From positions 62,001-126,000 of the forward strand of contig CM017451.1 in assembly GCA_007674295.1 (NCBI GenBank): a stretch of DNA of 64,000 bases, read 5' to 3'. The stretch is from Antonospora locustae. Taxonomy: Eukaryota; Microsporidia. Numbering within the stretch: the stretch's first letter is position 1; each line of letters begins with the position of its first letter. Positions 22,863-48,479 of the stretch are shown one piece after another. The position numbers were made by a program, and so were the translations under genes. The notes under the pieces are model-generated. The model was not told the origin of the DNA and searched no databases. It worked only from the letters and a program-made list of their open reading frames with translations.

Positions 22863-25800
22863 GATTTTGTTTTCAAAAACAGTTGATTGAAATAGAAATA
22901 TTTTACGACATATCTTTAATTCTTAAAGGGGTACACTGCGACATATATTTTTATGGAAATGATTAATGATTTTTCTCATGTTGTATTGAACATTGTATTT
23001 ATACTCAAAATGTGTGGCTGTTAAATTGTTTTATTTTTCAGGGTTTTTATTGTTTTATTAAATTTGTTTCCTCAGAAAGTATTTTATTCATATTACAATA
23101 TAATCTCCAAGTATTTCAAAGAATACGTAATTCTATCTATTCACCCTAACCATAAAGTATAAATAAATAATGTCGAATAAAAAACCAGATGCTTGCTTTT
23201 GTTAAGATAAATTAAAATTATATAATTTGTTTATTTTTTAATATTATTTTGTTAGTTATCCCACCAATAAGGTCTAATTAGAGTGAATGAAATCATATTT
23301 ATAATACTTACAATGAGATTGAAGATCAAAATTGTAAGAAGGAAATCAGTAAATCGACGTACATGAGCAGATAATGTGATGCAATTTTTTCTTGAATGGA
23401 CGCCCTTTTGTTAAATGTTTAAAATGTAAATATAACACTAAAAAATTGGTAAATTATAAAACATGTAAATGATGTAATTATTAATAAAACACTGCGTCTG
23501 TAAACTCTCGTTCAATTATACCATTTTGCATGAAAAGTAATTAGATGGCTTTAAGAGAATGTTTATTAAAATTCCTAACGGGAAACCTTTCTAAGTTGCA
23601 GCTTACCTGTGTCCATTGCACTCGATTTTGTGGAGTATCTCTTGCACAACACCTACTTAAAAGTACATTACTACTCTTTAGGGAACAACTGCATTCTGCA
23701 TCATCATAGATACAAAAATAATTAGGGTTAATTACTCATATAATTATACATAATATCCTGCGTAACGTGACAAATTTATAATAAGCACAATTCAATTGTT
23801 TCTATAATTTATAGTATTTACAGTCCTGTTTTATTTTTAATTTATCTTTATTAATTTTTATAAGCTTTCCGTTCTTGATAATTTGTTTTTATTAATTACA
23901 CATTTAAAAAGCTTAACAATCAAAATCACAAAGTTACTTACCTTTTTATTAATTAAAAACATATATATGTTTAATAACAATTTTTTCAATAAATATTCTT
24001 TAAAGTCAACAAACACATTATTAAACATATAGTACACTTTGGACGTTTTCTAAGAAGTGCTTATTGTTTATTTAAAATATCTTCAATTCATATTAAAATT
24101 ATATTACTTGTAAAAATATTAATATAAACTGTGATCCAGTTACATAATACTCTCAACTTATTTTTGAAACGATTTTTATCTGCAAAATTTCTTTACATGA
24201 AATTTTTATATAAGAAGTAATTCATACATTTGTATTTATGGAATTTGTATTATGAAAGTTTTATGTTTAATTTATCTTAAAATATAAGTTTTAATAGCTA
24301 GTCATCTACTTATTTCTTAATAATATTTCAAGTTGCATGTGTGTTAAAAGTTCATGTATGTTTATCAGTTCTCATATTATTTTGACATCTTTTCAAAAGA
24401 CAGATATTACTTCATATAAATATTTATTATCTCTTCTTCATCTTTTGATATATCATCGAATTTAATTGCTCTGTTCTTAATCTAATGAAATGAATTGTAA
24501 TTTTTGCAAGTGTATGGTTTATTTATAATTGATAACATAAAAAGAAATTATTTTGCAAAAGAATCAATGTTTGTAACTTACCTTTTCTATAACAGTAAGT
24601 TAAAAGAATAACATTTCAAGTTAAATCCTATAATACACATTCTATGTAGAGAACATTTGAGACCATATTCTTTGAGCACCACTACAGTATTGAGGATAGA
24701 ATCAGGACGAATATAGTGGAAGAGATATGATCTGATTCATATGTGTAGCCAATTAAGACAAGTCTAGATGTTTCGCAAGGAATGAAGGTGTCTTGCCTAA
24801 AAATAACCAGGTTGAGCCCAATAGGATGAACTACTCTCTTCCATTAATAAAATCCATCATGCTTCTATAAAAACATTATAAGTTAATATACTTATAATAA
24901 AATTAGTTTAAAAAACAAATCCTAGTATAAAGAATTCCATCAGAGAAAAAGCAATGACATAAAATGGATTTGTGTAGAAGATGATGCGTCCTGCTTGATG
25001 AATGTGACGATCTTGTCCAAGCATAACCTAAATGGAGTTTGATAGAACTGTTAATTAAAAAGTTTAAGCAAGAAAAATATAAGCGATTATGTTTTTTTTT
25101 CTTTTATAGTGTCAATATAACTTGAATAAATAAAATGAGTAAATAATTTTATTTGTATCGAATGTTAGGTAGAAACATTATTATGAAAATGAAGTCTCGC
25201 CATACATGGAAATATATTTTGTAACAGTTTTTTATTTAACCTATTAAGAGTCCTAAAGTATATTTTTAAGTTGAGATAAGCTATATACATTGTGTATTTT
25301 GCCGTAAGGAAAGTTCATCTTATGATGATAGTGCTCATAAAGATAGAGTTACCACAAGCGTCAGCATTAATAGACGTTGCCTCCTCTTGCTGTATTTTAT
25401 TTTATATTTGATATCTATTAATTATCATTTTGATTGTTAGTATGATTAATGAATTTTTAGTGTTATAATATAATTTATTTAAATATTATGTTTTATTCAC
25501 ATATCAAACAATAACGCCAAAAATGACCAGTTTTATATATTTATTTTGGTTTTAACCCGATATTGTCGTTTGATTGATTAAAAATTAAATATAATTTTTA
25601 GTAATAAATTTACTTATATAAAAATATTAATTAATTGTTCAAATCTATTCTACAACATTAAAACATATCTATCAATCAAAATAACTTTTCAAAATAAAAT
25701 AAGTGATAAAAATCAACATTATAAAAATATAAAAAAACGATTATATGTTAAATAATGAAATAAATCGGTCTTATCTTATTTACATGTACTCTGTGTTTTT

Positions 25801-26018
25801 TAAACTTTGTACAAAAAGATGTTTTATTTTAATTAATAAGAGAGAAAAAGTTTGCTGGTGATGAAATATATTTTTAGTTTATAATATAACAAATTGGTTC
25901 TTTTAGATATACTTCTATATACACAAAATATAAATAAAACTTAATAGTCAAATACAAAAAGGAAAAATAGCAAAAAACCCACCAAGATATTTTGTTCCAA
26001 AATTTTGTATTTAATATT

Positions 26019-26045
26019 GGAGAACCAAAGTGCAACAGGTACTAC
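26019..26045 (+). repeat. Repeat family A, short fragment
   Basis: The core GAGAACCAAAGTGCAACA is shared, on the opposite strand, with the copies at 32.0, 38.1 and 46.1 kb. Only this end of the repeat is recognisable here. Confidence 0.55.
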
Positions 26046-26654
26046 AATTGTGAAATGCTATAAGAAAGTTTCTAAACAGGAATATAAATGAAATTCTTAC
26101 TTTAAAAAGTTTTTATTTAATAATTATGTTAAAAAAGAAGTAAAAAATTTATATTTTTTGTAATATTTATGTATATTTTTTACTGGAAGACAAATAATTA
26201 AATTTATAACAATTTAATAGTTTTTTTGCAGTAAAAGTTTTGTTGACAAAATTTTCATTTTAAGGGATTCCAAAACAAAATGTTATGGTAGGTTTCGTCC
26301 TACGGTAGTATGTTTTATACCTTGATTCACTGGTTTTTTCTAGTAACATTACTAACGTTGTTTAATTATTAATAACACCATACTAGTTAAATAAAAATAA
26401 CTGTCATAAAAATAAATATCATAGCTAGTTTTTGTTTATCAATCTTTGAGATAATCTTTTTGCAGCTAATAGTATAAAAACTAATCTAGCTATAATTGTC
26501 ATAAAAAATAAAATAATCTTTAGAATATAACCTATATTATACTGGCTTGAATTCAGACACTAGCGTTAAGAGAACATTTACAAGCATAGTTCTGAACTAA
26601 AAAAAATGTAAGTGCAAGTAAGCTTCTTTGGAAATAACTGAATACGATAGTTGT

Positions 26655-26735
26655 AAGGTTTATTGAGTCTGATGCTAGATGTGTCTCCAGTAGGCTGTTT
26701 TACAATAATCATTTGGGTGTAATGAGAATGTCCTT
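26655..26735 (+). repeat. Repeat family B, degenerate copy
   Basis: Contains TTTATTGAGTCTGATGCTAG, then CCAGTAGGCTGTTTTACA and TGTAATGAGAATGTCC. It parallels 48105-48170 block by block, and most differences are transitions (C to T or G to A relative to that copy). Confidence 0.55.
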
Positions 26736-29710
26736 TTTACACGAATAAGACACATTATACCATAATACTTATCAGGTTATCTTGTGATGTAATATGATTT
26801 CCTTGATTTAATACAAACAATCCTTATATTTTTATCAAGGAAGATTTTATTTAGAGGAAAACTTATGAAAAATATCCATACAATGTTTTAATTATATTAA
26901 AAAAATTCAGTAAGTATTACTTTTAAACTATAAAGCAAAAGGTAATAAAATAATAATATCTTATTATAACAATTATATTTATTATTAAGTTTTTGTTTTA
27001 ATAATTACAATTTCTTTTTGCAGATAAAAATATTTCTAGATTTTTTTATTGAGTAAAATATTATATGTAAGTTATGAGTATACATTCTTCTGAGTTCATA
27101 AAAATATATTAAGTTATACTAAAAAATATTCTTTAAGATATTGTTTACCATTAAACCCTACATTTTAATAAGATTGGCTAGGAATCTTGTAGTTAGTCAT
27201 ATTCCACAAACATTGTGCATTTTGATTTTAATATAATCTTTTTTAATAAAAATTTGTCATTATATTTTTAGTTTACTTTAGAGCCATACTAGCATCATAT
27301 TTTTATTTATTAATACATCTTCATTTAAACCTAGTAGCCTATGTAAAACTATATTTAAATTTGTTTATCTATGATGTAAATTAAAGCTTTATATAATTTT
27401 TTAGTACAAAATACGAATTCATTGTATCTCTCCGAAAGTTAACTTTGTTTTATTATAATTTTATCTATTTTATGTATGATTTATATGTTTATATTTTCGA
27501 AAATGACATATTAATTATTTAATAACATGTATGTTTATATAGTTTTTTACAATTTACAATAAATTTCTATTGATTTGATACTTGATAGTAAATTAAGGTA
27601 ATACAAAATGAAACTTTTAAAAGAAAACTTTTACAGTCAATCATCAGAGGTTATTTTTCATTTTAAAAGTAATATTGAAGACTTAAAATATCTCTTTTTC
27701 ATAAAAAATAAGACGCTAATGTTTATAACATTAGTTTATCTTGAATAAAACCATCATAAATAAAGTTACAATAAATTCAATCTAAAATACCAGAATTTAA
27801 AATCATCTATAATTTATATCAAAACTTCTATTTAAACCTTATGTTCTGTTTTATAATCCAAATATAAAACAATTAAAAACTTATTGTTTAAGAATTTAAG
27901 AATAAAATGCTATTTCTATTAAAAAATAAATATTATTATTTTTGCATCACTTTATTGAAATCTGTTTGTATTATCATTGAAGAATATATTATTACATTAA
28001 GAACGATATTTCTCCCTGTTTTGATTAATTTTAAAACCAGTTATGATAATTAGTCAAAGAAAAAATTGCGTACAGATGAAGTAAAAAAATGAATATAATA
28101 AATATTAAAATATAAAGCTATGTATATTATAATAAGGATTGTAAAAAAATAATATATATTTTATCTAGCTATGATTATGGTTAACGCCAGTTTGACAATA
28201 CTTTAGTAAGATTATAAACTATAATTCCAAAGTTAACCAGCGATAATATAACATCACAAGAATACAAAAATGAGAAGCTTTTATAAAAGACTGAAGAAAT
28301 ATTTTATGAATAAGTTTTAAAAAATTAAATGTCATGATATTATAAAAAACAAAGATGAAAAATTAACAAATAAAAAGTAATGAACAGTTATCATTACATA
28401 AAATTAATACAATTAATTTAATGATAAAAAATGAAGAAAAGGTAATAAAATAATAAATTGTACGTAAATTACACATGATTTTAAAAAGAATTCATATATA
28501 TTTTATAAAAATTTGAGGCGAAATTGTATTTTTAATTATTAGTAAAAGGATGGTCAAGTATGAAAAAAAAATGTTTTTGAGAAAATATAAAAATAATATG
28601 AGTATTTACTTAGAATGAATAAAAAGTGAAAATGAAGTAACAATACAATCTCATACAAAAATATATCCTTATTTAATAAGGAATTATGTGTAGAAAATAA
28701 ACAATTATTTACGATATAATTACAGTTTTAATAACAATAGTAAAACTAGTAATATTATTTAATAGGACAAAGCTGCAAGTTAAAACACTATATGAAAAAC
28801 GTTATTCTATTAATGCTGGCTTTGGACACATTATGTAACAATGATACATTTACATTTCTAGACCTTTATGTTCTGTTTTAATATAAATTTTTTAGTACGT
28901 AAAATATTGTTAAAATATCATATTTTTATAAAAACAAAAGTTAGGGTTTATTATTAGGGCAAAATATAATATATAAACTGGAGAAGTTGTTTTTTAATTT
29001 CATTTTAAACTATAATTTTCACTATGATTTTCAGTATGTATTTTATATATTTATGATTTTCTACGCTAGACAAATATTAGAAATCTAACTTATATAACCC
29101 GGTGTGTTGTATGCTATATAAAAAAGACTTATTTCAATGGGTATATTGAACTTAAAAGTAAATAAATAAAACATAACAATATCATCTTAAATTAACATTT
29201 TAAAATGAAATAACAAATGTCATTAGGATACTAAAATAAATGTTAAGCAAGATAATCAATTAATATTTCTATGAATAAAAATATTATATACACAGTGAAG
29301 TTCAATCAGCTTATATCTTTGTTCAGAATTTTATAATGCGAAAATTTTGTTAATAAAAGTGTTAAAAAATAACAAAACAAATTGTTAATTTATTCTTATG
29401 ATTATTACAAATTTGAACAAAAAATTATTTATTGATATTATGTAATCTAATATTAAATAGCAATAAAAAATAAAAGTGTATTTGTAAATTAAAAACTAGT
29501 TTTTAATTATTATAATTAATTTAGAAACTTAATAAGGTCATAAATAATGTTGTACTAGTTGATTGTATATTGTGTCATTATACATTTTATTAATCTAAAG
29601 TATATTAATTTATAAATATAATATAACTTATTTATATTCTTGCCACTAAACATTTTTAAAAGAGACATAGATGACTTGTAAGAATCTCGAACATTCTAAA
29701 GAAAAGAAAT

Positions 29711-30576
29711 TTACTTGTCCTTTTTTGATAGTTGATAAATTACAACAGCAAGAACAACACCTAAAGCAGCAGCACCAATCACTAATCTTTTCCGTGGAAT
29801 CAATGGTGGGTTATCCACCTGATTTTCTATTCGTAAAAACTCGTGTTCTAAAGCAACAAGGTGCTTGTACAAGTTACCATCCACGTTTTTTATTTTCGAA
29901 CCTGATTCAATAATTTTAAAGTAGTAAACAAGCATCAAAAAAGACATGCTAGTTGGGCAGGAGATCAATATTGCAAATATCTTGTATATATCGTCTATGT
30001 TCTCAATTGAGCGTGAGAACCAAGACAAAGTTGTATTCATGTACGAACCGCAAACTTCTGGCGCAAGACGTACTCCTCTCTTTTCCATCATTTTCATGAA
30101 TACATGATTGTATCGATTATATATCACAAAATCATTTTCAACAAGAGGAATGTATTTTTCCTGTAGTACGTTTGTGACAACCACACTGCATTTTTCGTAT
30201 ATCTCCTCATCAATAAACTGCAGCATGTTGTCAGTATCATGTTCAATGTTTTCCGAACCTGCTGAAGAAAAGTCGTCTCTGTTAAGCTCTTCTACAATTT
30301 TTTTGTACTTTTCGGATGCCGATTCTTTGAAATAAAATAAGACAAAGTAAGAAGAAACCTCACACATACCTTGATAGTACTCAACTGTTGTTTCCAACAT
30401 GATTTTCTTGGTTATGTATTTGTATAGGTTTTTGCACCACTTTTCCTGGTCAGTAGTCGGCTTTAAGAAAATGAAGGCTCGCTCTGCATCGTTTACAACT
30501 GTATATTCATAAGAATTTCTGCCCTGTCTTTTGTACACTCTGCCTTCTCTAGATATCTCAAAAGGTCTTACTGCAT
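29711..30576 (-). CDS. TBC-domain Rab GAP, TBC1D20/Gyp8-like, tail anchored
   Basis: The only intact gene in the AT island; about 277 residues if spliced as proposed. The TBC domain shows VEYYQGMCEVSSYF, matching the YYQGYHDI core of TBC1D20/Gyp8 with its catalytic glutamine, then a TTLSWFSRSIENIDDIYKIF segment that fits ALSWLITWF...RLYDFF. A C-terminal hydrophobic helix (LVIGAAALGVVLAVVIY) followed by SKKDK anchors it in the membrane, as in TBC1D20/Gyp8, which act on Rab1/Ypt1 at the ER. The frame has no ATG at its 5' end. An ATG at 30576 followed by GTAAGACC, and an AG at 30541-30540, would restore one through a 32-nt intron. The TBC arginine finger (IxxDxxR) is not clear (VVNDAERAF). Confidence 0.75.
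30540..30571 (-). other. Putative 32-nt spliceosomal intron
   Basis: On the minus strand ATGCA is followed by GTAAGACC and the stretch ends in GGCAG; removing it joins ATG CA to A GTG TAC in the open TBC frame. Microsporidian introns are few, very short and often lie just after the start codon. A shorter alternative uses the TCTAG acceptor (22 nt). No classical branch site is visible. Confidence 0.45.
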
Positions 30577-31934
30577 AGTCAAAACTGAATGTTTTATATA
30601 ACTATTAAATTAAAATATAATATTTTAAAGACTTATATTTTCTTAAAGGGGATAAAATAATGGAATTATCTTTGTTAAAAATTTTTATAATATTGATAAA
30701 TTACAATATTTAATATGGTATGTTACTAAAATAATTTAAAGAAAAGATAAAACTTATAGCTAATTTTAAATCATTACACTGTTAATAAAATAACTTATCA
30801 GTAAATATTAACTAGTATTTATAATAAGTACAATTTTATAATTAATAATTTTCTGGAGCTTTTAATTAATTGTAGACTTAATACATATCTATACTTTTAA
30901 GTTATACGTTTAAAGCACACCTTCTGTATGAAAACATGTATTTAAAGTATTGTAATGTGTTTAAGATTATTTCATAAAATCTTTCATGATAAAAGCATTT
31001 TTAAGTGAAAATTCTTAAAATTATATTTTGTTTATCTGTAGACTATAAAAATAAAACAAAGACACACTGCATAATAATATTGTTAGATACGTATATTACT
31101 TACTCTATATTATTCTTTTATATTATAAATCAATATATTTGTAATCTGTTTTTGATATTTTTAATAAATAATAATATTATTTATAATTAAAATGAAAAGT
31201 TATAATTAAAAATTTTAATACTTATTGAAGTAATATAATGTTTTAATTTTTTCATAATTAATGATTGCTTTTATTCAAAATTCTATACTTTTTTTAACAA
31301 AATCTGGTATCTAAACAAGCTTTTCTGTAATTAAAACCCAATACACAATGAAATCATAGTTTATATTTATTTATGATCACTTTTTTAAGAAATAAGAACT
31401 ATTTTTTAAAAACTTATAACGAAGAAATTAAATTTTACTTACAAAACTAGCTAATATGTATTTTTAAGAAGACATACCCTTTATTAAAGAAAAAACTAAT
31501 GTAAAATAAAAAGTTATTAACAAGTTGTAGTATAGTATGTATTTGTATTCTATTCTTGGTTATCATATCATAATTAAAACTAGGAAAAATAAATTTAATG
31601 TTAATAATTCTAAACATAAATCATGTAATTTTTAATTTATGTCGAGTATTTGTGTAAAATGTACTTTTCGTAAATATAATCAAATATATCTTAAAAAATA
31701 ATATTTGTTCATTGTTTTCAATTATATGTATATGTAAATGTGAATTAATTTTTTAGTGAATGAATTTTCATAATGTATTTAAAAAAAAATTATTAACAAA
31801 TTTTTAAATGGAAAAATTTAAGCCAAAACATTCCATAATATTATGGTCTTACGATTTTTTTACATAGCTATTTTATTAAGTTTCCAGATTGTAGAATATC
31901 CTTAAAGTCTCATCTCCATGCTAGTTGGGCACAG

Positions 31935-32095
31935 AATTTATTTGTCTGTTGCACTTTGGTTTGTAAATCATTTTGAACAGTAGCAATGCCCTCCCTAGAG
32001 AACGTTACCTGTCAAGAGATCAGGCAAAAAGGTTGCTGTTGCCATCAATTTATGTAGCGGATCAGCTGCATCCTACACTCGCTTGGGAGCAGAAT
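31935..32095 (-). repeat. Repeat family A, long degenerate copy
   Basis: On the plus strand it has TTGCACTTTGGTTTGT at one end, then GTTGCTGTTGCCATCA, and TTGGGAGCAGAA at the other end. The same three blocks, in the same order and similar spacing, occur at 45980-46160; the first and last occur at 37980-38155. Read on the minus strand it has coding-like stretches broken by stops. Confidence 0.7.
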
Positions 32096-32992
32096 ACAGG
32101 ATTATATTTTATTATTATATTAGTATGAATCAATCATAATATTAATAACTTTGTCCATTTTTATAAAATAAATCATAAAACACGTGACAAAGAATATTTT
32201 GTGTTAATTTTTATTTAAATAATCTTAAAAGATTAGTAAGTACTTTTAACTTTTGATTTATGAAAAATTATAATATATTGTTATATAGTTTTTAATATTC
32301 AAATTTTATCTCTAAACAATTGTAAACAGATATATGCTATATAGAAAAGAAATTTAATTACATATATTTGTAAATATTATTAAACATAATTTAAAAAACA
32401 GTTACCAACTGTTCAAGCATTACGTTATTGAAAATAATAATAAATATATTACTAAATAATACTAGAAAAACTTAAATCGTATATTTGTTAAAACATCATA
32501 TACGCAAATAGAATTAAGTTGTTTTTTTAAATATATAACTTTTTGTATTAAAAATCTTTAAACAAATTTTTATTAATTTTATTTAATATTTTTATAATAT
32601 ATATTATCGTAAATTTAAACAAAGCATAAGTCAAACTATATAATAATATATGTAATACATTTTATTTTTTAATTTCCTTTTCTAACCTTATTAGTTTATA
32701 TTAATTAAGCAGAACATAAAAATTGCTAAGGAATTTTTGTGTTTTTGAAAGTACAATCATGAATTATATTAGCTTTCTGTGTTTGTACAATTAGGTTTTT
32801 TACTACATAACAATTGCAAATGTTGTTGTACTGTAGAGATTATAACACTCTTATAAAGTTATTGATATTTATAAAATAGAATTACAACTTCTTCATACTG
32901 TAACTATTATATAAAGTCATTAATTAAAAGTTATTTTATATCATTGAACTTTAAGTAATTTTGTAATATTTTAAATACTAACTTAATATGAC

Positions 32993-33020
32993 CCGTGGAA
33001 CAAAGTGCAATTGACACATA
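32993..33020 (+). repeat. Repeat family A, short fragment
   Basis: GTGGAACAAAGTGCAATTGACAC resembles the GAGAACCAAAGTGCAACA end of family A in the same orientation as the 26.02 kb fragment. Weak, one-block match. Confidence 0.4.
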
Positions 33021-33244
33021 ATGTGCCGTAATTTAGAGAAAATTTATAAGGTTACTGTAGAATAATTTTAATAAAGTGTTATTTTAAAAATGTAAATAGA
33101 TTTACATTATTAGTCCTTTTATGATTAGTTAATTGTTCATGTTTAGTTATTATTTTACTCGGAATGATAGTAGGTTGTAAACCAAGGAAGAATTTGACAC
33201 ATGTGGACTATTATAGTAAGGGGCTATGAACGAAAGTAACGATC

Positions 33245-33300
33245 TTTGTTGAGTGTGATACGTAATGGTCATCATTATTCAGTAGGTTGTTTCTAATAAT
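33245..33300 (+). repeat. Repeat family B, degenerate copy
   Basis: TTTGTTGAGTGTGATAC followed after about 17 bases by TTCAGTAGGTTGTTTC matches the two main blocks of the copies at 26.66 and 48.11 kb. Confidence 0.5.
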
Positions 33301-34858
33301 TACTTATGTGTATAAATTTACCTTTTCTTAATAAAATATAGAAAAAATGTTAATTATCTTATTTAAAAAGATACTGACATATTGTTTATTTTAATCTACA
33401 TAAATTAGTATGTTTATATATATATTCTTACTAGAAATAGCTCTGGAATTTCAGTCTCCAGCTGGCTTTCAAAAAGCAACGAAGAAAAATAAAAACTTAC
33501 TTCTTTAATAAATCTTTAATAATACGAATTTTATATAATAATACATCAACATTCGCATTAAGTAACATTAAAATCAATATGTTTCATAAAATATCAAATA
33601 TTATCTCAAACTATTTGAAAAATTACATATTATTAAATATTATATTCCTTATCAAAAAATTCTTTGTAGATTAATAGTATTGGGCATTTATATTTTTTAT
33701 AATAAACAATAACATGTTTTTTTAATCACAACTTATTGTAAATTCTCATATATGTGATCTTCTACACTTCCATAATCTTATTTATTTTTTGAATTATTCT
33801 TGATTCCAAATATCAAACTTATATTGCTCCTAAGCTTCAGATCATTAAATACTTACGTTGTAGTTAATACAGACACGAAAACTTTTAGTAGCGTTTCCGA
33901 TGGTATGAGAACCTTTAGAGAGATATTTAATAACATCAAACTTATTTTAATATAAAATTTAAATGCATTCCGCCATCATGTTGTAACATTTCACGTAGAC
34001 GTTATCTCTGTGCTTTTTCATTAAGTAGTTATATATTCTAACATATTCTTCACCTTTATCTCAACATTAACATACATTGAGCTCTACTAGGCAAAGAAAT
34101 ATATTGCAGTCATAAACGTAGCTGAATACAAATTTCAATTACAAACACTGATACCCGTACGTTCATTATATATTTGCAACAACTATGTGTATTTAAAGCA
34201 TTAAAGTGTCTTCTGTAACATATTTAGAGCATCAACATTCTCATAAATTCTACTTTTTTGTTTCTTAGCCAACATATTCATCTCTATCAGACACAGACTT
34301 ACTTTCTTTAGTACTCTTTTATTGTTGTCACTAAAAAACTTATAATGAGAGTACTTTACAGTAGATTGCATATTAAAAAAATATGGCAACAATATATTAG
34401 TTACCATAGTACAATTTTTAGAGTTAGATAAATATTTTTGATGTCTACATGACTTTTGAAACATTTATAAGTTGTTAAAGTTCTAAGGCGCAGAAATATA
34501 TATGATTTATGAGTTTATATAGAATTTATAGACTTAACAAGAAAGCGATACATTCATTGTAACTACATGTTACATAATAGTCTAATCTTCTTCAGTAAAC
34601 ACTATAGTGATTTTAAGAACAGAATTAAAATGGAGATTTATTTTATATTTAAAAAGAGATCTTTTATAATATGAATGTTAAAAAATACGGAATAGTTCTA
34701 AAGCTATATCATTGTTTGAAGATTAAAATGCTGCTAATATCTTATATCTGAGTTTTTTAGTAAATAAAAAAAAAAACAAAAGATATTTCATTCATTAAAT
34801 ACCTCTTTTATAATTCTTTTTTTTTTGCACTTAGTTGAACTTTATTATATCTAATAGC

Positions 34859-34922
34859 TTTATTTATATATTTTAATAAATTTTTTTATTTATATATTTT
34901 AGTAAATGTTTTTATTTATAAT
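34859..34922 (+). repeat. 26-bp tandem repeat, about 2.5 copies
   Basis: The unit begins TTTATTTATATATTTTA and recurs at 34859, 34885 and 34911 with one or two changes per copy. Confidence 0.75.
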
Positions 34923-36313: not shown

Positions 36314-36434
36314 AGTTATAATTTTTATTTATATATATACTAGTTATTAAGTTATAATTTTTATTTATATATATATACTAGTTATTAAGTTATAATTTTT
36401 ATTTATATACATATACTAGTTATTAAGTTATAAT
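36314..36434 (+). repeat. 36-38-bp tandem repeat, about 3.2 copies
   Basis: The unit AGTTATAATTTTTATTTATA... ending ACTAGTTATTA starts at 36314, 36350, 36388 and (partial) 36426. Copies differ only in the length and one base of the internal TA run, so this is a recent duplication inside otherwise diverged DNA. Confidence 0.9.
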
Positions 36435-37979
36435 GTTTAAAAGATTTCAGATAAATATTAAAAATAGCTTAAATGAAAATTAATAGTATCAAAAAAATTC
36501 TAAGCAATTTTTTATTTACTGTATAATGTTCATTTACAGATTATTGCTTAATTAAGAAAAAATTATATAACATTTGATTTAAATACCATAATACACTTTT
36601 ATTTAAAAACAAAATTGTAATACTAAGAAGTTGTAATAGCAAGTAATATTTTTAATTTACAACTGATCATATTTACATATTTTAACAAGATAACTGAATA
36701 TTCAATTTGTATAATAAAGTAATAAAACAATTTAAACTTTAAAAATTCTATTTTCATTATTATCACACTTTGATGAAAAAATTTCTAATATATGTCTAAA
36801 TTGCAAAAAAATTGTTTATATAATAATTCTGTGTTATTTTTTAAACTTAGTAGTTATATTGAAGAACATATCACAATAATATATTGTTTATTTTTTAAAG
36901 GTAATGATTTTATTAACAAATTTTTTTGAAAGATCATATACTAAATATGATGTCTACTCGTAATCCAATGTACCATGCTAATTTTAATTAATAGACTATT
37001 TTTTAAAAATAGTTTTATAATGCTTTTTAAATCGATTTTTAAATTATATATTTTTTTGAAAGATATTAAGTATAGATTTATTTTAATAAATCTTATTAGT
37101 CATAGTTATGTAGTAAACAAAGTAAAGCTGATCAATAGATTTTATTACATATATTTAAATTTCTTTTAAATGAAATTATCACATAAATAATATGAAAATA
37201 ACATCTAAAATTTTTAAGTTACTATGAATTGAAAATGGTGTTTTTGAAATATTCATACAGTAGTATATAAATATGTATAACTTTTCAATTTAATTTAATA
37301 CTTAGTAAATGTATTTAATATATATAACTTACATAAAGAATTTAACTTAATATTAGAGTAGTATGAGCATATTATTAAGTAAAATTATAGAATTCAATTA
37401 TCACAAAACATAAGTTAAACATATTAAAACAATAGGAATAAAGATTGTTTTGCTAGGAAAATTACTATATATTTTTAAAGCTCTTGAAAATTAAACTAAG
37501 TTTAGAATTAAATATACAATTAACATAAAAGTTAATTTATAAAATATACGTACAGATATTTAATATAGAGTTAATTATATATTTTGACATTATAAATAAT
37601 ACCTAATTAATTTACATTTATAATATCTATAAATTGCACATAATATTCATTTATAAAATTATATATTATTTTTATAAAGATAATGACAACAAATAAAGAT
37701 ATATGTTAATACTATAATAACGAGAGCTAAATTTGTAATTCTATTTAATTATGATTTTTTCATAACATATTTATTTTTTATCTAAAATATATTTAAAGTA
37801 AGATTATTTTTAAATCTATATAGATTATTATATTTTATTTAAATTACCATATGTTAATACTTATAACTATTAATGTTAGTACTCTAGTTAGTTTAAGTTG
37901 GAATGTTCGTCATAAAAGTTCTTCAATTTTTTTATATAATAGATTTATTTCCCTTATTGAGAACCTACCTAGAGTATTT

Positions 37980-38155
37980 CATGATTGCGGACTATCACGT
38001 GCCAGTGTTGTTGCACTTTGGTTCTCTGAGAATTTTACATAAGGACCATTTATCAGAGCATTGTTTACCGTCAAGAACATACACAAGAAGATGGCTAATG
38101 TTACTAAATGTGTGCTGAGAAGTTATAATTGTATTTTACTCTCTTCTAGGAGCAA
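37980..38155 (-). repeat. Repeat family A, long degenerate copy
   Basis: Plus-strand blocks GTTGTTGCACTTTGGTTC and CTCTTCTAGGAGCAATT lie about 140 bases apart, as in the 45980-46160 copy. The middle is more eroded. Confidence 0.65.
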
Positions 38156-41100
38156 TTGTATTTATAGAATATTTTTTTGTGAAAATGCTTAACCTCGTAT
38201 GTGATATAATAAATAATGTTCGTTTTTGTATGTCTTTATATTAATGTAAGTTTTATTATTAACTTTTTATGTAATATCAAAGACATAAATTTTTTATAAC
38301 TACATAAATATTACATCATCATTACAACTACATTTTAAAAAAAGGTTTTCTCATGTTTTATTATGAATGTTTAAGTAATTTGTATTTTTACTAATTTCAA
38401 CTACTTAAAAGGCGTAGTTTAAACTAAAAAATTATTTGTAATTAATACAATGTCATTTAGAAAGTAATTATATTGATTCAGATAATTTATAACTTATTTT
38501 ATTTTAATAAAATGTACATTATTACTAAACACTTTATGTATCAATTATTAAACATTTGATAGCTACTAATCTATAATATAATTTTATTTGTTCCTTATTT
38601 AAATTAATTTATATTTTAATATGGTATTATTTAAAATTACAAATAAATATTTTGAAACTAAACTCGATAAAAACTCCTTTTTAAATATTTTATTTAGGCT
38701 TTATTGACAAAAGTTATTAAACAAAACATTGCATGCTAAAAATTCAAAATAGTTGCTTCTCTACTTATGCATTGTAATTTATAGTATTGGTTTTCATTTA
38801 TTTATAACACAACATAGTTTATTTAAGTTAATACATATCTTATATTTATGTTTGATATTATAATAATATCGTTTTATTTAAAAATTAAAATGTGAAAGAA
38901 CCATGTTTTAATAAGAATAGTTTTTCATTAATGGGAACTCGTTGGTAGAAATGTTATTTTTTAAAAAATAACATATTTATAAAATAATTTTTTAGGTAAA
39001 AACTTTATTAACTATTTGAACTAGTATATAAGTCTTGCAACTAAAATCTAATATTTATTAAATGGTCATTTTTAGAACAGGTGACTATAGTATTTAAAAA
39101 TTTTACTTTATGCCATAATAATTTCTTAAAAAATATACTTGATTTTATACAAGTATCATTACAACATACATTTATTAGTATTAAATTTTGTTCTTATTTA
39201 TTTTTTATATTTCTATAATGTTATTTGATAAAAAATATAAGTAAATTATTCATTAAATTTAGAGAAGATGTAAGATATAGCTATTATTGAAATTTATTAT
39301 GAAATTTAATGTTTAATAACTGTATTTTTAATACAAGTATATTTTAACAATTTATATTAAGTAAAATTCTCCATTAAACACATCTATAAAAAACTCATTA
39401 CAATCTAATAATTATTGGTTAATTCTAACTTTAGGTTTATGATGTTATAAAAAACATAATTCAATTTTTTTGTTTAATATGTAAGCTCATATATTTGTAA
39501 ATCATTAACTTTATTATGCAAACAAATTTTAAGGTGTGTTATAAATTAAAATATAGTTTTTTTTGTAAGTTTATTTATATTAAAACAATTTTTTTGATTA
39601 TATTGTTTTCTAATTTTGCTCATAGACAAGGTACATTTATTTTTATAAGCTCGAAATAATTAAAAAAACATTTACTTATAAATTAAGACAAAATAAAATA
39701 CTATTTTATTTATAAATTTTACTAACATATATTACATAAATATTTTTTGTTAAATATTCATAAAAAACCCCTGGCAAATTAATTAAAAAATTATAAAAAT
39801 ATTTTTTAGAATATAATAACATTAACTGTGGTAACTATACAATTTAATTATTTAAATTTTTAATGTAATAAACTATATTGGGTAAAATTATCAACACACT
39901 GATTTAAATAATAATTCAAGTGTTATGTTATTCTAGATAATGTTTTCAGTTTAGAATATTTGTGTGAATATGAGAAAGTTTCATAATAGTATACATTATT
40001 TTTTCCATTTAGTGCGAGAAACATAAGTTTTAAAAACATTTTCGTATGTTATTTCAAAATTTGATTTATATATCAATCTTAAAACAATAATATTTCATAT
40101 TAACAATTTTAAACATACACCCTAATACATAATTAATTATTATTTCTAGTTTAAGTTTTGTTGGGTTATTAAAAGGTGAAATATCTTATATTGGATAATT
40201 AAATAATTTATTCTTTCAAAACTCTTTTTCATATTGTATAGTCTCTGCTCTTGTCATAACAGATACATTTTCGTTAGTAGCACATAATGTAGCAGATCAC
40301 TTACTTTACTAAATTCATTATCCCAATATACTTGATACTCTAGTGTTATTTGAAATAAATAGTTTCAAATATCTCTTTGAATACATATCATCTTCACATA
40401 CACTTATAAAGACTTGATCTCAAATTTACAGAAATATACAATCATCATTCTTTGCTACAGCCACCTTATCAAGAAAAGACAAAATAAAAATCTTTTATTT
40501 GTAAATAGCTGCAAGTTATTTAGTTAGAAAGTCGGACATCCGTATCTTATCAAATACAACAGGTGTTTTTTAAGCAGTTAGAAATATTTTTATATGCAAT
40601 ATTACTTTCTTTTATTAATATTTGTCACTCTGTTGTTATGTCTTTTTATGTTATTAAGTTATTTGGGTTTTTTGTTTTTTATAATAATAATTGATTTATG
40701 ACTTTTATGTTGTGTTGTCTAATATATATTAAATTATTTTAAAGTTTACTACTCTATTGAATATCTCTTATTTTTGTTTATATTGTTGTATAAAGAACAA
40801 CTCTCATACGAAAAGGCAAGCTATAGTAGAAAATACAACTGCAGGCGACAATTGAATTCATGTGTTTACAATTCATTGTTTGTATGGGTTGAACTGTTAT
40901 TGAAATGACAGATAGATACTCTTTGAACTAAGTATCATGCACATGATAATTTGCAACTGTTGAGAGGTTTGACTAGGATATCATCTGTGAATTTTGTTTA
41001 TAAAACTGTTTACATGAAAGTTGTAGAAAATATGTTAAAAAAATAGCCTAAATTATGGTTATTTTATAATAATAAGTCTTGAAAATTAAAAAAAACTAGT

Positions 41101-44100
41101 AATCTTATAAAAACAGTTCAATTTTTTATGTAATAACTTTTTAAGATTATGAAATTATGAATTTCTCTAATGTTTCTTATCTGGTTACAGATTACTACTG
41201 TGTGCCTGTTGCAGTTTTGTTCGAAGATGTCTTTCAATTTTTAGATTTTTTATTCATTATTTATATACAATTCTTTTACAAAAATGTTTTTAATTAGTGA
41301 ATGTTTCCTTCTGAAATTTTACTTTATGCAATGAAATAGATTTATAATATCTCAAACTCTTATTTTTAAGAAATCTCACTAAAAAAATAAAATTCTTAGT
41401 CAATATTTTAGCTCTGTACACTTTTGTTCTTGTATTATATAATGTGTATAATCATTAATAATAGTTAGTGATGCTGCTATAATGTTTATACAAGTACAAT
41501 TTTAATAATAAAATAGTGTTAATAAAATTAATAACAAATCTGCAAATAAATTTTATATTACAATAAAAAAATATTTGAGATATTAATAATAGCAAATGTT
41601 TTAAAAACAACATGTAAATTATAACTAAAAAATTTAATATAAGTACACTACAGTGATTCTAAGGATTAAAATATTTTTAAAATGTTTAACCAGATCTCGA
41701 TAAACACTAAACATAGTCATTTAAAAAATAAAAATTATACGAATTCTAATACCTAATTAATTATTTAATCCTAATTTTATGAATATAAACATGTAATAAA
41801 TTTATAAATATTTGAAATTTACAAAACTTTTATATAAACTTAGTAGAAAAAAAACATGATGTTATGTATAAATTTATTATAAATTAATTTACGATAACTA
41901 AAACAATCATTATGACAAATGTTATTATAGTAAAAGTAATTTATTAAGATGTTTTTGGTAATTATATATATAGATAAATTAAAAAAATCGCTAATAGACA
42001 ATAAATCAAAAGCATTTTATTTGGTTTAACTAATTTTTAGTCATGATTTTTCATTCTTATAGTAATAAAAACTCATTAAAAAATTATAATTATCAAAGTC
42101 TCATATTAAATTAGTTGTATAAATTAAAAAGATAAAATTAAAGATAAGTACATTAAATGTATAATTATTTTATGCAATAAACGGATAGGTAATATTTATA
42201 TTATGTATAAAATAAATATGTAAGTATTGCTTATCTTGTCTTAAAATACTTAATTGGGAAATAAAAACATTTAAAAAGTTTCATAAATAATAGATAATAT
42301 TATAAAAAATATTTTTAAATACTACTTATGATGTTATTTTACTTACAATTATCAATAATATTAGTAAAAGTATTCGAATTTATTATTAAAAATTTTATTA
42401 TTGAATCTATATTTATAAAATACAATAAATACAAAAAGCTCAAATGAAGTATACAAAATTTAAAATTAGATTGTTTCTAATTTTATTACTAACTAAAAAA
42501 TTCTCATATAATATATAAAATTTTATGAAAAATATAATAATAAAAAAATGCTGTCAAATTTATTTTGATAACAATTAATAAAACTTACATTTTAAGTAAC
42601 CTAATTTAATTTTTTTTTCAAAATCTATCATAATTATAAGATATCAGAAAAAATTCTTTTTATAAATAAAACATTCCATGATTGCTTTAATTTAAATAAA
42701 TTTATTAATTTTATAAATTTAAACCAGTTATAGGAAATTTAAACATGTTTATAACTTGTATAAATAACTTATAATTATTTAAATATCTTAAATAATAATT
42801 AAATAAAGTTATTATATAGTTATACATTCTATTACTAGCCCGAAAAAATATTTTTGAGTAGAATTTATCGCATTTTTTATGTTATGATTTTTATATACGA
42901 AAATAATATTTTTGTTGTATTACATACATCCCTTCTCGAGGTTTCTAAATAAAATATTACTAGCTATATAAATTATTAAGACAAAATTAAGAAAACATAG
43001 CAAAATGTATAACTAATATCTAATATAACAGTTTAAAAACATGATCTTATTTTTTGTTTATGTCCTTATTAAAAAATTCAGATAAATAAAAAATAGATCA
43101 ACAAGTTATGAAATGCATAGAATATGACTAATGTCCACTACTTTTTACAACACAATTTTATAATGAATAAATATACTTCAAAATACGTGACTGTGGATAT
43201 CTAAGAAAAAAATAACAAGTTGTTAGCTAAATTATTCTCTCTCTATAAAATATATTTTAAACTTACATACTTGTTCTATTTTTGGAAATATTGTTTTATT
43301 TTTATATTATAAAATACAAATTAAAAAAATAACATTATGTCGTTATATTTAAACAAGATTATTGTTAAAAGGGTAATTTGATAAATAAATTTTAAAACAC
43401 AAAAAACTTACTTGATTTAAATAAAATTAACGCTTGCTTAATTAAGTAAAATATACAATTAATGAAAAATATTGAATATATGTTTATTACAATAATAAAA
43501 ACTACATTTTTAAATTTAAAAGTTAAATATACTATATACATCTTAATGATATAATAATAACATTTGTTATTTTACAAACTTTTTATTACTATTATAAGAT
43601 TTTTTAATAGATGATGACGTTAAATTTATAAGTGTTGTATTTTTTGTTTAAATTATAAGAATCGTTATTTACTTAAAATTTCATTTTATAATTAAAATAT
43701 AATAACACTTAAGCTGTGATATAAGAATAGAGAGTATTAAAGTTAAAATATTATAGAAAGTACTGATGGAGAAAAACAATTAAAAATCAAATCTAAAACA
43801 TTAGTATGGTTTACACGTTTTGATTAGATAGTTACCTTATAAACTAAACTAAATAGTTAAATTAAAGAAATTTATTTTAATAACAGACACTACATAAAGA
43901 TAAATATGAAATTATTTATTTATATTATTATTTACTTTTAGCTATATAGTTATAACTTATTAACATAATTAAAGTTATAAAAAGTTATCTTAATTTATAT
44001 CTTTAAAAGTACTAAAAGTAATTTATAAGTTCTACTTATAAATATTTGATTTACATTTCTAGAGCTTATTTATGCTAATTTAATTTGTTATATTAATCTC

Positions 44101-45979
44101 GGTTATGAAAAATCCCTAAAATTTTTATGAAATTTAAACAATTATTTTATAACTATATGCATTTCTATTAGATATACATAACTATCTATTATTATTTAGG
44201 AATCATGGTTTTGGAACATATAATTAAGAATTTATTAACTTTATTTTTTATAAAAATAATAGTTTTACTAATTATTGTACAAACAAAGGAATTTTATATA
44301 AGAGATATTGTTATTATAAAAGCTTATATTTTTTAGATTAAACTTTATTAACTCTCTAACTTATGAAATTCTAAACAAAATATTTCAGTTGTTTTGTTCC
44401 ACAATTTTTTGTGTAATTGTCTTTGCATTTTTTATCTAATTCTTATTAAAACTTCCAAATTAAAAAACCTTCCTAAAGCGTCACAACAGCAATTTTAAGA
44501 TAGCAACATTATTCACAGTTCTATTAGAAAAACACTAAAAAAAGTTGCTACCTATAATATTTACATTACCTTTATTTGTATTCAAGTTTGTACAAATATA
44601 TTATACTTTTTTATTTATAATTGTAATCTATAAATTCCAGAATAAATTATGTGTCATTAAATCTATAATAATAATCTTTAGTTTTAATATCCTTTTTAGT
44701 ATCAAAATATCAGTTTAAACTTAGTTTGTTATTTTTATTATAATGTGGTATTAACTACATTTTTTATCTTCAATAAACATAAATACAAAAATTTCTTACC
44801 TCATTATTTTATCATCATCATACTTTTTGAAGTTAAAAAATATTTTTCCTTCTAATGACACCATCATTTGTTAAGAAAACTACAAAGACAAATTTATTTA
44901 AAAGTGCTTTTTTCATATAACCAAACATTACTGTAAAACAACTTTCCAGAGATAGTTTCAATATAAAACTCAATAAATATCTCTACCTTTGTGCTCAACA
45001 CCTCCTCGCAGCAGCCTACTTGCGCAGATAGAAAACTGTTTATAAATAATCTGAACTAAAAATATTGACATGTAAGAGAGATAAGTCTTCTAATATTGAT
45101 AAAATCCTCATAAAAGACATTTTGTCAATAAAATTATTAAAAAATCGGTTTTGGTATATATTATTAATATTAATAAAAATTTGGGAGTAAATAGATGATA
45201 TTTTTTGATATATCAAGGAAAACACTTGTCGTTGTATTCTTCTATTATATATTATGTTTATTTTATTCTTAATATACATTTATATTAATAGGTTTATGAA
45301 AGCTTCTTGACAAGTTGTTACCTTACTTGTTCATGTTTCATTTTGGTTTTCAGCCATATATTACAGATGATTATATTTATTTTATTCTTAATGTAGGTTT
45401 CTTATTCTTGATACAATTTTTGTTTTTACGTTTAAGCATAATTTGATTACACTTCAGAATACTGAATTCTAAGTAGATGAATAACTAGATGAAATATATA
45501 ATGAAGTTGCTGTAGGTGACGGTGACAATTGTTGTGATATTAACACCATAATTCGCAAATAAAAGCATTGATGCTATTCAGAATGAAAAATTAAATATTT
45601 TGTTGATCTCAATCTGTATGCACATACATATATATAGTCTGTGACTGGTCAAGATATTTTTTATCCATAATTTCCTTAATGTAAGAAAATACATAATTAT
45701 ATAAAAATGGATCTTATTAGTAAAATTATATTAAAGACTAAATAATATTAGTGAATTGATAAAAAACTATACAAATGATAACAAATAATAAAATAAATTT
45801 CTAAGAAACTATAATTAGTTAGTTATAAAATGTATAGTAATATTTCAGTGTTTATAATACGTTATCAAAAACAAATTAAACAGATAAATGAAGAAAAATC
45901 TATTTTTATTCAGCATTTTTTAAGATAAAGGATTTATTGATTTTCATATTGTGAAAACCTTTTAAAGTGTCACAATCAG

Positions 45980-46160
45980 TTGCATTCCAATGTGCGTTGT
46001 ACTTTGGTTCACAAAAAGGTTACTATACGGCGGCCATTCCCTAAAGCATAGTTGCTCATCGGATAATGATTGCGCACATAAGAAAGAATATGTGCTGTTG
46101 CCATCAGTTTCTACAGCAGACCAGATATAACATCTCTCTCTTTCTAGGAGCAATTCAACA
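45980..46160 (-). repeat. Repeat family A, best-preserved copy
   Basis: Plus-strand blocks GTTGTACTTTGGTTC, GTGCTGTTGCCATCAG, TTCTACAGCAGACCAG and CTTTCTAGGAGCAATTC. The minus strand is open for about 60 codons (45962-46153), which suggests the repeat came from a coding sequence; the protein is not recognised. Confidence 0.7.
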
Positions 46161-46573
46161 CATAACTAGAAAAATTTTAAAATTAGTGGAATTTGGTTAT
46201 TTAAATACAGTAGATTTAAAAATTTTGAATATTATTAAAAACTTTTTTGTTCGTTTTCTAATTTTAATAAATTAAAAAGGCGAAATAAATTGTTAATTTA
46301 AATTCTAGAATTTGAACATTGTTGTGAAACTATTATTTTATTTAAATTTAATAAATAAAAAAAACAAAATATATTATAAATTAATTAATATGACAAAGCA
46401 TATTTTTTTAAATACATAAAAGTAACAATTAATAATATTATAACTTTTTTTTACTAAAAATATAAAGGTAACATAAGTAGTAATAGATTAATTGTTTTTT
46501 AATTATATCCAATTTTATTTTAGAGAAACATTAAGAATAATCAAAAAAACGTTTTTGTTTTTATTTTTAATAA

Positions 46574-46850
46574 TTAAACAATATATATTATAAATGTTAA
46601 TATTTTATTCAATAACCACTTTTTAAAGTGGTAGTAAGAGATTTTGAGATTGTGAAGTGTATTATTGCGTATTTCTGTCAAGTAAGACGGAAGATGTAAA
46701 ACTTGATGTTTTTGTGATTGTGTGAGATTGCATTGTGGTATACCAAAGAAAATCAAAAGCTTTGCGTTAAAACAATGGTTTTGAGGGTGATATTTAGCTA
46801 GGAGATGTATTTCTACTGTATGTGTATTTGTGTGGTAAATCTTTTTTTAT
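46574..46850 (-). pseudogene. Open coding-like relic without a start codon
   Basis: A minus-strand frame of about 90 codons has unusually balanced composition for this AT-rich DNA (for example FFGIPQCNLTQSQKH and LPSYLTEIRNNTLHNL). It has no ATG in a useful place, and the last 15 residues run into AT-rich filler. It could be the remains of a gene or a diverged mobile-element part. Family not recognised. Confidence 0.3.
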
Positions 46851-47999
46851 CACGAATTCAAATGTGCAAGCGCATGGCGGGCTACAATATTCAAACGTTT
46901 GATTCAAAATTTTCTAAAGTGAGAATTTTGTCGCTAAAATTGTTACTATAAAAAATCTCCACAGAGTTTTGTGTTAGTTATTTTCTAGTATCAACACATA
47001 CATGCCCAGGATCTCCTTAGTTGAAATAATCAAAGTGATTATAAGATGGTAGTTGGTGTAAAGTGTTTAAATAAAGGACTAAGTAACTATCATCATTTAG
47101 TTTTACTTAAATAGAACACAAATGCTAAATTTCCGAGATTACAGAAGTATTAAATGGCTAATAACTAAAGTAATTTAACTCCAAAATATTTTCTAAATTT
47201 AGAGTAAAACCTATCTTCTTTTGAATTTATAAAATATAAAACATTTTCTTTGTAGTAACCTAAATTTCTAACTAAATGAAAAATTAGTTTTGCATTATAT
47301 CATTTTAAATTTAAACTTCTAATAAAGTGCTTCTTACCTATAGATTTTTTACGAAAGTTAGTTTCTTGTAACATTCACATTATTCTTGTTATGTAGAATA
47401 TGAATCAAAAGAAGAAACTTTGTATATAGTAATTTGTAATGTTTTTTCCAGATATTGTTTAACCCTAAAATAGGTTGTAAAGTCTTGTCACTTTATTGAT
47501 ATACTACAATTAAATAAAGTTCTTTTTATAATTATTAAATATTTTGGGTAGATTAATTAAACATTTTTCTTCTTAATCATTTGAATATGTTTAGTAAAAT
47601 GTTATAAAATCGTACTCATTGTTTAAGTTTTTCTTGACTTAATAATTAGGAATATTATTTTATTAAACCTAAATTACCATATATCTTGTATCTTCGAATA
47701 AAAAAGTATTCAATAAAATTCGTGCTACTTGAAAATATATGTTTTATTGATCTTACATTTGTTTTTATTTTATTATATAATAAAATAAAAACACAACTTT
47801 TATAAAGGTAGCATGAAAAATCATTTAAATCTACTCTGAAATAAGTTGTAGTAGTTTAAATCTATATATGGTTTTATTGTTTACTCTGCTGAAAAGCAGT
47901 TAATATTTATGCAAGTATTTTTTTATGAAGACATTGATTTATAATTAATTTCATTACACAGTTTTAATTTTAACTTAACATATCTTTTACTTTTTACTT

Positions 48000-48190
48000 C
48001 GTGTCACAAGAAGTGCCGGAAGGAGATCTGAGATGTTGGAGGCCCAGATTCAGATGGTGACACTATTGAGAACTTTCTGCATTTGGTTGGGTGCCGAGGC
48101 TTATTGAGTGTGGTGCTGGAAACGGTCTTCAGTGGATTGTTTCACACTCGAATGCAACGAGAACATCATTTCTGATTATACAGAATGTCT
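48000..48190 (+). pseudogene. Repeat family B, best-preserved copy (decayed gene fragment)
   Basis: A sharply GC-richer islet near the right edge of the island. In one frame it reads LIECGAGNGLQW, like motif I of a SAM-dependent methyltransferase, followed by about 20 more codons, but two stops interrupt the same frame upstream. The copies at 26.66 and 33.25 kb keep the start of this frame (FIESDA, FVECDT). No intact version lies in the window. Confidence 0.45.
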
Positions 48191-48479
48191 ATGTTATTTA
48201 AGATATTTTTTTTATTTAAATTTACATAATTGAGAATCAAAGAACCTTTTCTTCTCATGTGTTTATTTTACATAATGTAATTGATGTGCGGATCAAAAAG
48301 TGCTTCAAAACACAAATTTATCTCAACATGCCAATCGCTAGTAAATAAGAAGTGCGCGATAAAAATTACCAGGCATATGTACTCTTTATCAATCAATAAA
48401 AAATTTATGTTTAAGTTGTGATATTATTAATGTTTTGAAACGCATAAAGTGTATTTTAAAAAAAGTTAAAACAAATTTA

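Follow-up and report, generated by a model that had tools for sequence, protein, structure and literature searches.

The window analysed here, that is the whole stretch of 64,000 nucleotides, corresponds to C5:62001-126000 of Antonospora locustae, a microsporidian parasite of locusts (GCA_007674295.1, CM017451.1; C5 and similar names denote contigs). A two-break maximum-likelihood model delimits within it an AT-rich, gene-empty island at 22,858-47,996 (25,139 bp), with a GC content of 0.210 between a left flank of 0.466 and a right flank of 0.452, and a log-likelihood gain of 2163 over a model with one rate. The features of the locus are the following, F1, F2 and F3 being repeat families:

22194..22862, + strand: last ORF of the left flank, 222 aa, whose stop is the left edge of the gene-free stretch
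22858..47996, no strand assigned: AT-rich, gene-empty island, candidate regional centromere of C5 (two-break maximum-likelihood fit, GC profile, counterparts on 15 further contigs)
25029..25187, no strand assigned: segment of 159 bp, 99% identical to C1:167003-167161
26604..26749, - strand: diverged F1 copy, partly matching C1:147562-147648, which falls in the interval containing the start of the C1 island
29598..30596, - strand: copy of C9:35091-36089, 99.8% identical over 999 bp
31902..32167, + strand: relic of family F2
33021..33109, + strand: relic of family F3, also found in the C8 island (C8:79196-79249, 87%)
33196..33337, - strand: diverged F1 copy, 39.9 bits, not a model seed
37941..38200, + strand: relic of family F2
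44886..45031, + strand: diverged F1 copy
45938..46210, + strand: relic of family F2
46864..46954, + strand: relic of family F3
47760..47793, no strand assigned: perfect palindrome of 34 bp, inside the island some 200 bp short of its right border
47998..48182, + strand: border element E1, ~180 bp, 46% GC
48480..48890, - strand: first ORF of the right flank, 136 aa, at which the gene-free stretch ends on the right

The AT-rich, gene-poor island described in an earlier note is real, and the shift from flank to island spans a few hundred bases in the 200-bp profile; "almost only A and T" needs correcting, however: A+T amounts to 79%, and in small pockets GC reaches 36-38%. Since GC is still low (24%) from 48,183 to 48,479, the gene-free stretch is bounded by the ORFs ending at 22,862 and 48,480. 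The 222-aa ORF on the left is proline-rich with a hydrophobic N-terminus, and no Pfam match at 0.001 was found for it. The share of sequence taken up by ORFs of 80 aa or more is 88% in the left flank and 81% in the right one, as against 4% in the island. Outside these ORFs the GC content is 41% and 40% in the flanks and 20.5% in the island, which is thus not merely ordinary non-coding DNA of the genome, whose arm spacers have 40-41% GC.

The ORF coverage of the island consists of the truncated copy of the C9 gene and one 87-aa ORF, a size also reached in Markov copies. With the copied gene removed, the island holds 10 ORFs of 50 aa or more beginning with ATG, the mean in 100 Markov copies being 6.7; as 10 are reached in 17% of these copies, there is no clear coding excess. 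RNA genes of known kind were not detected inside the island at gathering scores. What had been taken for one intact gene (29,598-30,596) is the copy from C9, which lacks a start codon: it begins just past it, and the longest ATG ORF left is of 229 aa compared with 295 aa in the source gene. The 295-aa protein has a C-terminal hydrophobic segment and a TBC/RabGAP-like match below threshold only. The copy is a recent insertion and is not intact; a retrocopy origin was rejected, there being no poly(A) beside it. On C1 the counterpart of the 159-bp segment falls within the interval containing the end of that contig's island, and a histone H3 ORF lies about 225 bp away.

Repeats, motifs and the border element

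Three genome searches covering 22,900-48,480 returned few matches, and the C5 island sequence appears nearly unique, although this is not proven, since the DNA search was loose and its match counts are lower bounds. None of the matches was common to all contigs, which tells against a shared centromere motif of the length that such searches recover. A point centromere would call for a short conserved motif on every chromosome; E1 was found at 99% on four contigs, one of them C5, and at 75% on one more. Compared with 39 low-GC pieces of the genome (27,000 bases), the island gave 6 matches (null mean 2.55, maximum 6), the best of them scoring 61.7 bits where the null 95th percentile was 51, and compared with 150 high-GC pieces it gave 1 (null mean 0.10, maximum 1); both sets left out L002, which lies inside the 10-kb C8 stretch L022, and the C9 loci L001, L080, L082 and L174 if present.

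Neither long inverted-repeat arms of the kind known from some Candida (those listed, 25 of 49, are diverged and no longer than 59 nt) nor a tandem satellite (best array 38 bp, 3.4 copies) were found in the island. The AT-richness of Neurospora centromeres stems from RIP; such a cause was rejected here, with TpA/ApT of 1.03 and (CA+TG)/(AC+GT) of 1.01, and the C8 island is likewise without a RIP-like shift (1.03 and 1.00). As regards a retroelement-rich centromere of the Cryptococcus or Microsporidia sp. MB type, the repeats recognised are short diverged relics and no long ORF was found, but relics of greater age may no longer be recognisable at 20% GC. Another copy of F3 is present in the C7 island sample L179. 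The search with repeat models covered 97 of the 203 sampled sequences and gave 9 matches, among which only 33196-33337 and L011:7369-7480 are not seeds, the F1 and F2 models scoring high for their own seeds by construction.

E1, a member of family F1, is 99% identical to C1:145278-145456, C8:72908-73091 and C13:44136-44316, and 75% identical to C7:115738-115863. Each of these matches lies within the 9.5-13.5-kb interval where the island of that contig begins, the placement test being a post hoc one, set up once the matches were known. Apart from the islands, copies of F1 occur, at higher GC, near two contig starts (2.3 kb on C5 and 4.4 kb on C15). E1 was rejected as a known RNA, since its two matches scored far under the gathering thresholds, as was F1 as a structured RNA (no consensus pairs), and terminal inverted repeats were not seen in E1 by eye.

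Counterparts on the other contigs

The genome was sampled approximately every 20 kb (177 samples, plus 20 stretches of 10 kb). One AT-rich, gene-empty block was found on each of 15 other contigs, which together with C5 makes 16 of the 17. The earlier note took one such island per chromosome as support for a centromere, and this pattern is seen at ~20-kb resolution with the exception of C9. The 166 samples from outside C9 fall into 37 with GC below 30%, 3 at 30-36% and 126 at 36% or more, and on each of the 15 contigs besides C5 and C9 the low samples (the C8 stretch L022 included) adjoin with no high sample between them. The probability that 16 blocks placed at random would land one on each of 16 contigs is 3.9e-7, C9 being left out. 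The blocks sit at internal contig positions (~20-kb resolution), and their sizes, bracketed at 10-60 kb, leave room for a length of about 25 kb; at this spacing, blocks smaller than about 19 kb could escape detection on other contigs, and the sampling stopped 27 kb before the end of C12 and, for most contigs, short of the right-hand end. An open frame longer than in shuffled copies occurs in 1 of the 37 low-GC samples versus 87 of the 126 high-GC ones; C3:220001-220500, with 32% GC, has no long frame.

C9, whose 11 samples are listed apart from the 166, is low in GC yet coding: nine of them have 25-39% GC and ten show an excess of open frames, the sole one without it being C9:70001-70500 (25% GC), and no block of this type is seen there at ~20-kb resolution. 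Over the first 10 kb of each of the 17 contigs, 500-bp steps mostly have 42-58% GC, and only C9 dips below 30%. The A. locustae islands have probably already been noted in print; the abstract of the 2020 genome paper reportedly mentions that 16 of the 17 chromosomes have an ultra-low-GC region of ~25 kb, and a 2026 paper touches on regions of this type.

A candidate regional centromere and its alternatives

Centromeres pull chromosomes apart at cell division, and the island is most probably the regional centromere of the C5 chromosome, one of a set with about one member per chromosome. It is this distribution that supports the regional AT-rich centromere proposed in the earlier note. The genome also encodes candidate components of the machinery. 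A CENP-A-like H3 is encoded on C14, at 98 kb, with a loop 1 longer by 5 residues than that of H3; the part of it that was read, which falls short of the start suggested by its relatives (MARTAF...), contains no ARTKQTARK stretch, whereas both H3s have it, and one relative is named centromeric by its source. A CENP-C domain matches PF11699 with a modest 33.5 bits versus a cut-off of 29 (in the control, 8 of 14 prokaryote genomes gave matches below the cut-off), and an Ndc80 domain matches PF03801 with E 1e-39. The chromodomain, SET and Argonaute domains of this genome likewise fit a centromere.

CENP-A nucleosomes would then occupy the block wholly or in part, the kinetochore would be assembled on it by CENP-C and Ndc80, and its position would be maintained epigenetically and not by a sequence motif. 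Little selection combined with little GC-restoring recombination could allow AT-biased mutation to bring the block down to about 20% GC, arm spacers remaining near 40%. Broken chromosomes may have been patched with stray DNA, such as the C9 gene copy and the C1 fragment, and old repeats would decay in place. More tentatively, the near-identical elements at the island edges may have spread or been homogenised between islands, and may mark the start of gene-bearing chromatin.

Alternatively, the island could be silenced heterochromatin without kinetochore function, a graveyard of repeats and stray DNA, with the true centromere elsewhere or the chromosomes holocentric. In the parts of a 2025 survey considered here, no centromeric regions are recognised by GC or repeats in other microsporidia, and holocentry or an epigenetic definition is mentioned (PMC12449221). 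Diverged relics of three short families of dispersed repeats are indeed present in the island, as the earlier note had allowed, and chromodomain, SET and Argonaute domains are encoded in the genome; a graveyard alone, however, gives no reason to expect a single block on each chromosome, contig starts, two of which carry F1 copies, are not AT-rich, and CENP-A-like H3 and CENP-C are encoded, all of which makes this explanation unlikely. It is very improbable that the islands form a compartment in which genes or transcripts evolve fast or act on the host: the 2020 genome paper reportedly ties the low-GC regions to host defence, but open frames are not clearly in excess in the C5 island, 36 of the 37 low-GC samples show no excess at all, and the only longer ORF is the truncated gene copy. 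A former subtelomere or chromosome fusion point, now internal, is suggested by the F1 copies shared between islands and contig starts, but fits poorly with the GC of those starts and with the open frames in three of the three places looked at there, and a fusion relic is not expected once on 16 of 17 contigs, which leaves it hardly credible. Equally hard to credit is misassembly, or foreign AT-rich DNA (host, organelle) placed by the assembler, since, with the joins between island and flanks taken as assembled, the blocks lie on 16 separate contigs and share elements among several islands and with contig starts.

Comparison with other centromeres and significance

As candidate regional centromeres, the A. 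locustae islands most resemble the GC-poor, ORF-free and largely unique centromeres described in the sections used of the work on Candida auris and its relatives (PMC8262905) and on C. lusitaniae (PMC6107279): one per chromosome, a GC trough, unique sequence and no shared motif found. The CENP-A regions of C. auris are of 2.5-2.9 kb, as against about 25 kb for the island (PMC8262905); in those sections the centromeres of both yeasts are without repeats and their CENP-A occupancy is demonstrated, while the A. locustae island has decayed repeats and shared edge elements and is a candidate by its sequence (PMC8262905, PMC6107279). The centromeres of Neurospora crassa are likewise AT-rich with repeat relics but, in the portion of the source drawn on, 150-300 kb long and H3K9me3-rich (PMC4589918), and the island lacks the RIP-like ratio shift.

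Within the phylum, the candidate centromeres of Microsporidia sp. MB, as far as the text consulted describes them, are mostly one central gene-poor region per chromosome with little synteny between regions; unlike the islands, they measure 30-82 kb, contain many Ty3 and L1 elements and exceed the arms in GC, and similar A. locustae regions are noted there in passing as lower in GC (PMC13174016). As in A. locustae, the CENP-A-like H3 gene of Encephalitozoon lies apart from the H3-H4 pair; according to the passages concerned, its chromosome cores are gene-dense with little deviation, an epigenetic centromere is proposed, and a (sub)telomeric position is favoured by the authors (PMC10158259). Near relatives of A. 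locustae have proteins of 87-93% identity.

It is also conceivable, though rather doubtful, that E1 and the rest of family F1 function as borders of microsporidian centromeres, where they stop the spread of CENP-A or heterochromatin into adjacent genes, and that exchange among centromeres lying together in the nucleus keeps them near-identical; if true, no centromere edge in the phylum would have been defined by sequence before. In the relevant parts of the literature, the location of microsporidian centromeres, and whether localised ones exist, are treated as open (PMC12449221, PMC10158259, PMC13174016). A. locustae offers here 16 precise candidate centromeres, a CENP-A-like gene for raising an antibody and a clear prediction for ChIP and Hi-C.

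The AT-rich island of contig C5

The assembly of Antonospora locustae, a microsporidian with locusts as hosts (according to the title of a reference), consists of 17 contigs (C1–C17) and 3,170,203 bases. The window corresponds to C5:62001-126000, and the protein translated from its positions 29711-30400 matches a segment of an A. locustae protein (source label jgi/Antlo1) at full identity. The AT-rich island claimed in the earlier note was borne out by a two-break fit, which places it at 22,858-47,996 of the window, with a GC fraction of 0.210 vs. 0.466 in the left and 0.452 in the right flank; the right limit of the gene-free stretch is an ORF ending at 48,480. ORFs of at least 80 aa cover 88% of the left flank, 81% of the right flank and 4% of the island, where the number of small ORFs is close to the chance expectation. 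Outside the ORFs of this length the GC content is 20.5% in the island vs. 41% and 40% in the flanks, so the island is unlike ordinary spacers too. Neither tRNA nor other known RNA genes were found within it at the thresholds used, and it contains no satellite arrays of note and no RIP-like ratio. Across the whole window a single tRNA gene was detected, tRNA-Lys (CTT) at 55869-55941, ~7.4 kb from the right border of the island.

The one gene described earlier as intact within the island turned out to be incomplete. The stretch 29,598-30,596 is 99.8% identical to C9:35091-36089 across 999 bp, and because the similarity begins at codon 2 of the C9 gene it lacks its own start codon. The ATG-initiated ORF left in it encodes 229 aa vs. 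295 aa in the full protein, which is TBC/RabGAP-like below threshold only. There is no poly(A) at the 3' side of the copy, which looks like a recent DNA patch rather than a resident gene.

Repeat relics and the border element

Searches of the genome with 22,900-48,480 matched few other places, and these counts are lower bounds of a loose DNA search; for example, it missed copies near contig starts that are related to the one at 44.9 kb and that another search found. The GC-richer pockets of the island are relics of dispersed short repeats belonging to three families (F1, F2, and F3).

Matches of the C5 island in the genome search, and F1-like copies
C9: the gene copy, island match
C8 island: 54 bp, island match
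C1: 159 bp, 99%, island match adjoining a C1 histone H3 gene
C1:147.6 kb: 87 bp, 78%, island match; F1-like copy where the C1 island begins
C5 and C15, near contig starts: F1-like copies
C14 and C15 islands: F1-like copies
C9:102 kb: F1-like copy
C9:38.1 kb and C9:7.4 kb: F1-like copies at GC changes of C9

An element of the F1 family, E1 (47,998-48,182), marks the right border of the island. Its GC content is 46%, and that of the stretches adjoining it is 21% and 24%.

Copies of E1
C1:145278-145456, 99%
C8:72908-73091, 99%
C13:44136-44316, 99%
C7:115738-115863, 75%
C9, partial match, 38-bp piece

The copies on C1, C8, C13, and C7, in mixed orientations, each lie left of the island of their own contig, in the gap that separates the last sample of the arm from the first within the island, a position resolved to sample intervals of 9.5-13.5 kb. 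Such arm-to-island intervals account for 10.8% of the genome and hold 4/4 copies (p = 1.3e-4), or four of the five matches when the C9 piece is counted (p = 6e-4), in a test designed after the matches were known. A mobile element with a preference for island edges would fit, and so would exchange among centromeres or a border element that has been kept.

One block per chromosome

The analysis read the initial 10 kb of each of the 17 contigs plus three other stretches of the same length, and then 177 short samples spaced at ~20 kb, denser near the islands. Among the 166 samples from contigs other than C9, 37 had less than 30% GC (low), three had 30-36%, and 126 had at least 36% (high). With C5 and C9 set aside, the low samples are adjacent on every one of the remaining 15 contigs, with no high sample between them (the stretch read on C8 included).

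Low-GC blocks located by the samples (C8: samples and the C8 stretch)
C1: 150-160 kb
C2: 50-70 kb
C3: 60-80 kb
C4: 150-160 kb
C6: 80-100 kb
C7: 120-130 kb
C8: 74-90 kb
C10: 40-60 kb
C11: 70-80 kb
C12: 60-80 kb
C13: 50-60 kb
C14: 60-80 kb
C15: 20-40 kb
C16: 50-70 kb
C17: 20-30 kb

The count of islands per chromosome, proposed in the earlier note as a check, is thus a single block on 16 of the 17 contigs, C9 being the exception, at a ~20-kb sampling that could overlook a second block below ~19 kb and that stops 27 kb before the end of C12 and short of the right-hand end of most contigs. If 16 blocks are placed at random, with contigs weighted by length and C9 excluded, the probability that each of the 16 contigs receives one is p = 3.9e-7. 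An excess of open frames was present in 1/37 low vs. 87/126 high samples; one outlier, C3:220 kb, has 32% GC and no long frame. The size brackets of 10-60 kb are compatible with ~25 kb, the exact size being that of C5 only.

On C9, 9 of the 11 samples are at 25-39% GC and 10 show an open-frame excess (5% line), the one lacking it being C9:70 kb (25% GC); as a guess, the C9 centromere, if of the same kind as the islands, may lie near ~70 kb. A large part of C9 is coding at 27-39% GC, other arms being mostly near 40-50%; recombination could be scarce on this chromosome. C9 also has a low-GC block at ~7.4-38.3 kb, its 10-26 kb part covered by a single sample, with oppositely oriented F1 copies at either end.

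Centromere machinery and interpretation

Two H3 genes with canonical tails are present on C1; near one of them, on the opposite strand, is a weak histone match below the cut-off, which could be H4. The canonical gene at C1:167386-167823, with a weak histone match nearby on the opposite strand, lies within the interval that contains the end of the C1 island. A third, CENP-A-like H3 gene (C14:98073-98420) has a loop 1 longer by five residues, and ARTKQTARK is absent from the part read, which stops short of the start suggested by its relatives. These number 15 (43-89% identity) and include a Hamiltosporidium protein labelled centromeric by its source. A small unrooted tree separates the pair of C1 H3s from the C14 protein (support for the H3 pair, 99), with the Hamiltosporidium protein and two others between and one weak node (53). 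A CENP-C domain is present at a modest 33.5 bits vs. a cut-off of 29, with below-cut-off matches also in 8 of 14 control genomes, and an Ndc80 domain matches at C11:91661-92002. The Ndc80 match and the CENP-A-like gene each lie at most ~20 kb from the island of their own contig. Three of the four chromo-domain matches exceed the cut-off, and two SET-domain matches were found. RNAi may be active in A. locustae, since an Argonaute-type gene (C14:106790-107665) has a strong Piwi match (E 2e-84).

A 2020 genome paper reportedly describes an ultra-low-GC region of ~25 kb on 16 of the 17 chromosomes. Since a local GC drop in A. locustae is also noted in a 2026 paper on Microsporidia sp. MB (PMC13174016), the islands have probably been published before; among the literature matches listed, none tests the centromere reading for this species. 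Encephalitozoon subtelomeres are reported to be AT-rich (PMC10158259), whereas several of the contig starts read in A. locustae (10 kb each) are rich in GC, with values up to 65%.

Gene-free sequence with little exchange and little selection would drift towards the AT-rich composition that the mutation bias favours; repeat relics would decay within it, and breaks would be patched with stray DNA. In our reading the islands are probably regional centromeres, which would be held by CENP-A chromatin; the steps leading from sequence to kinetochore are those that we infer.
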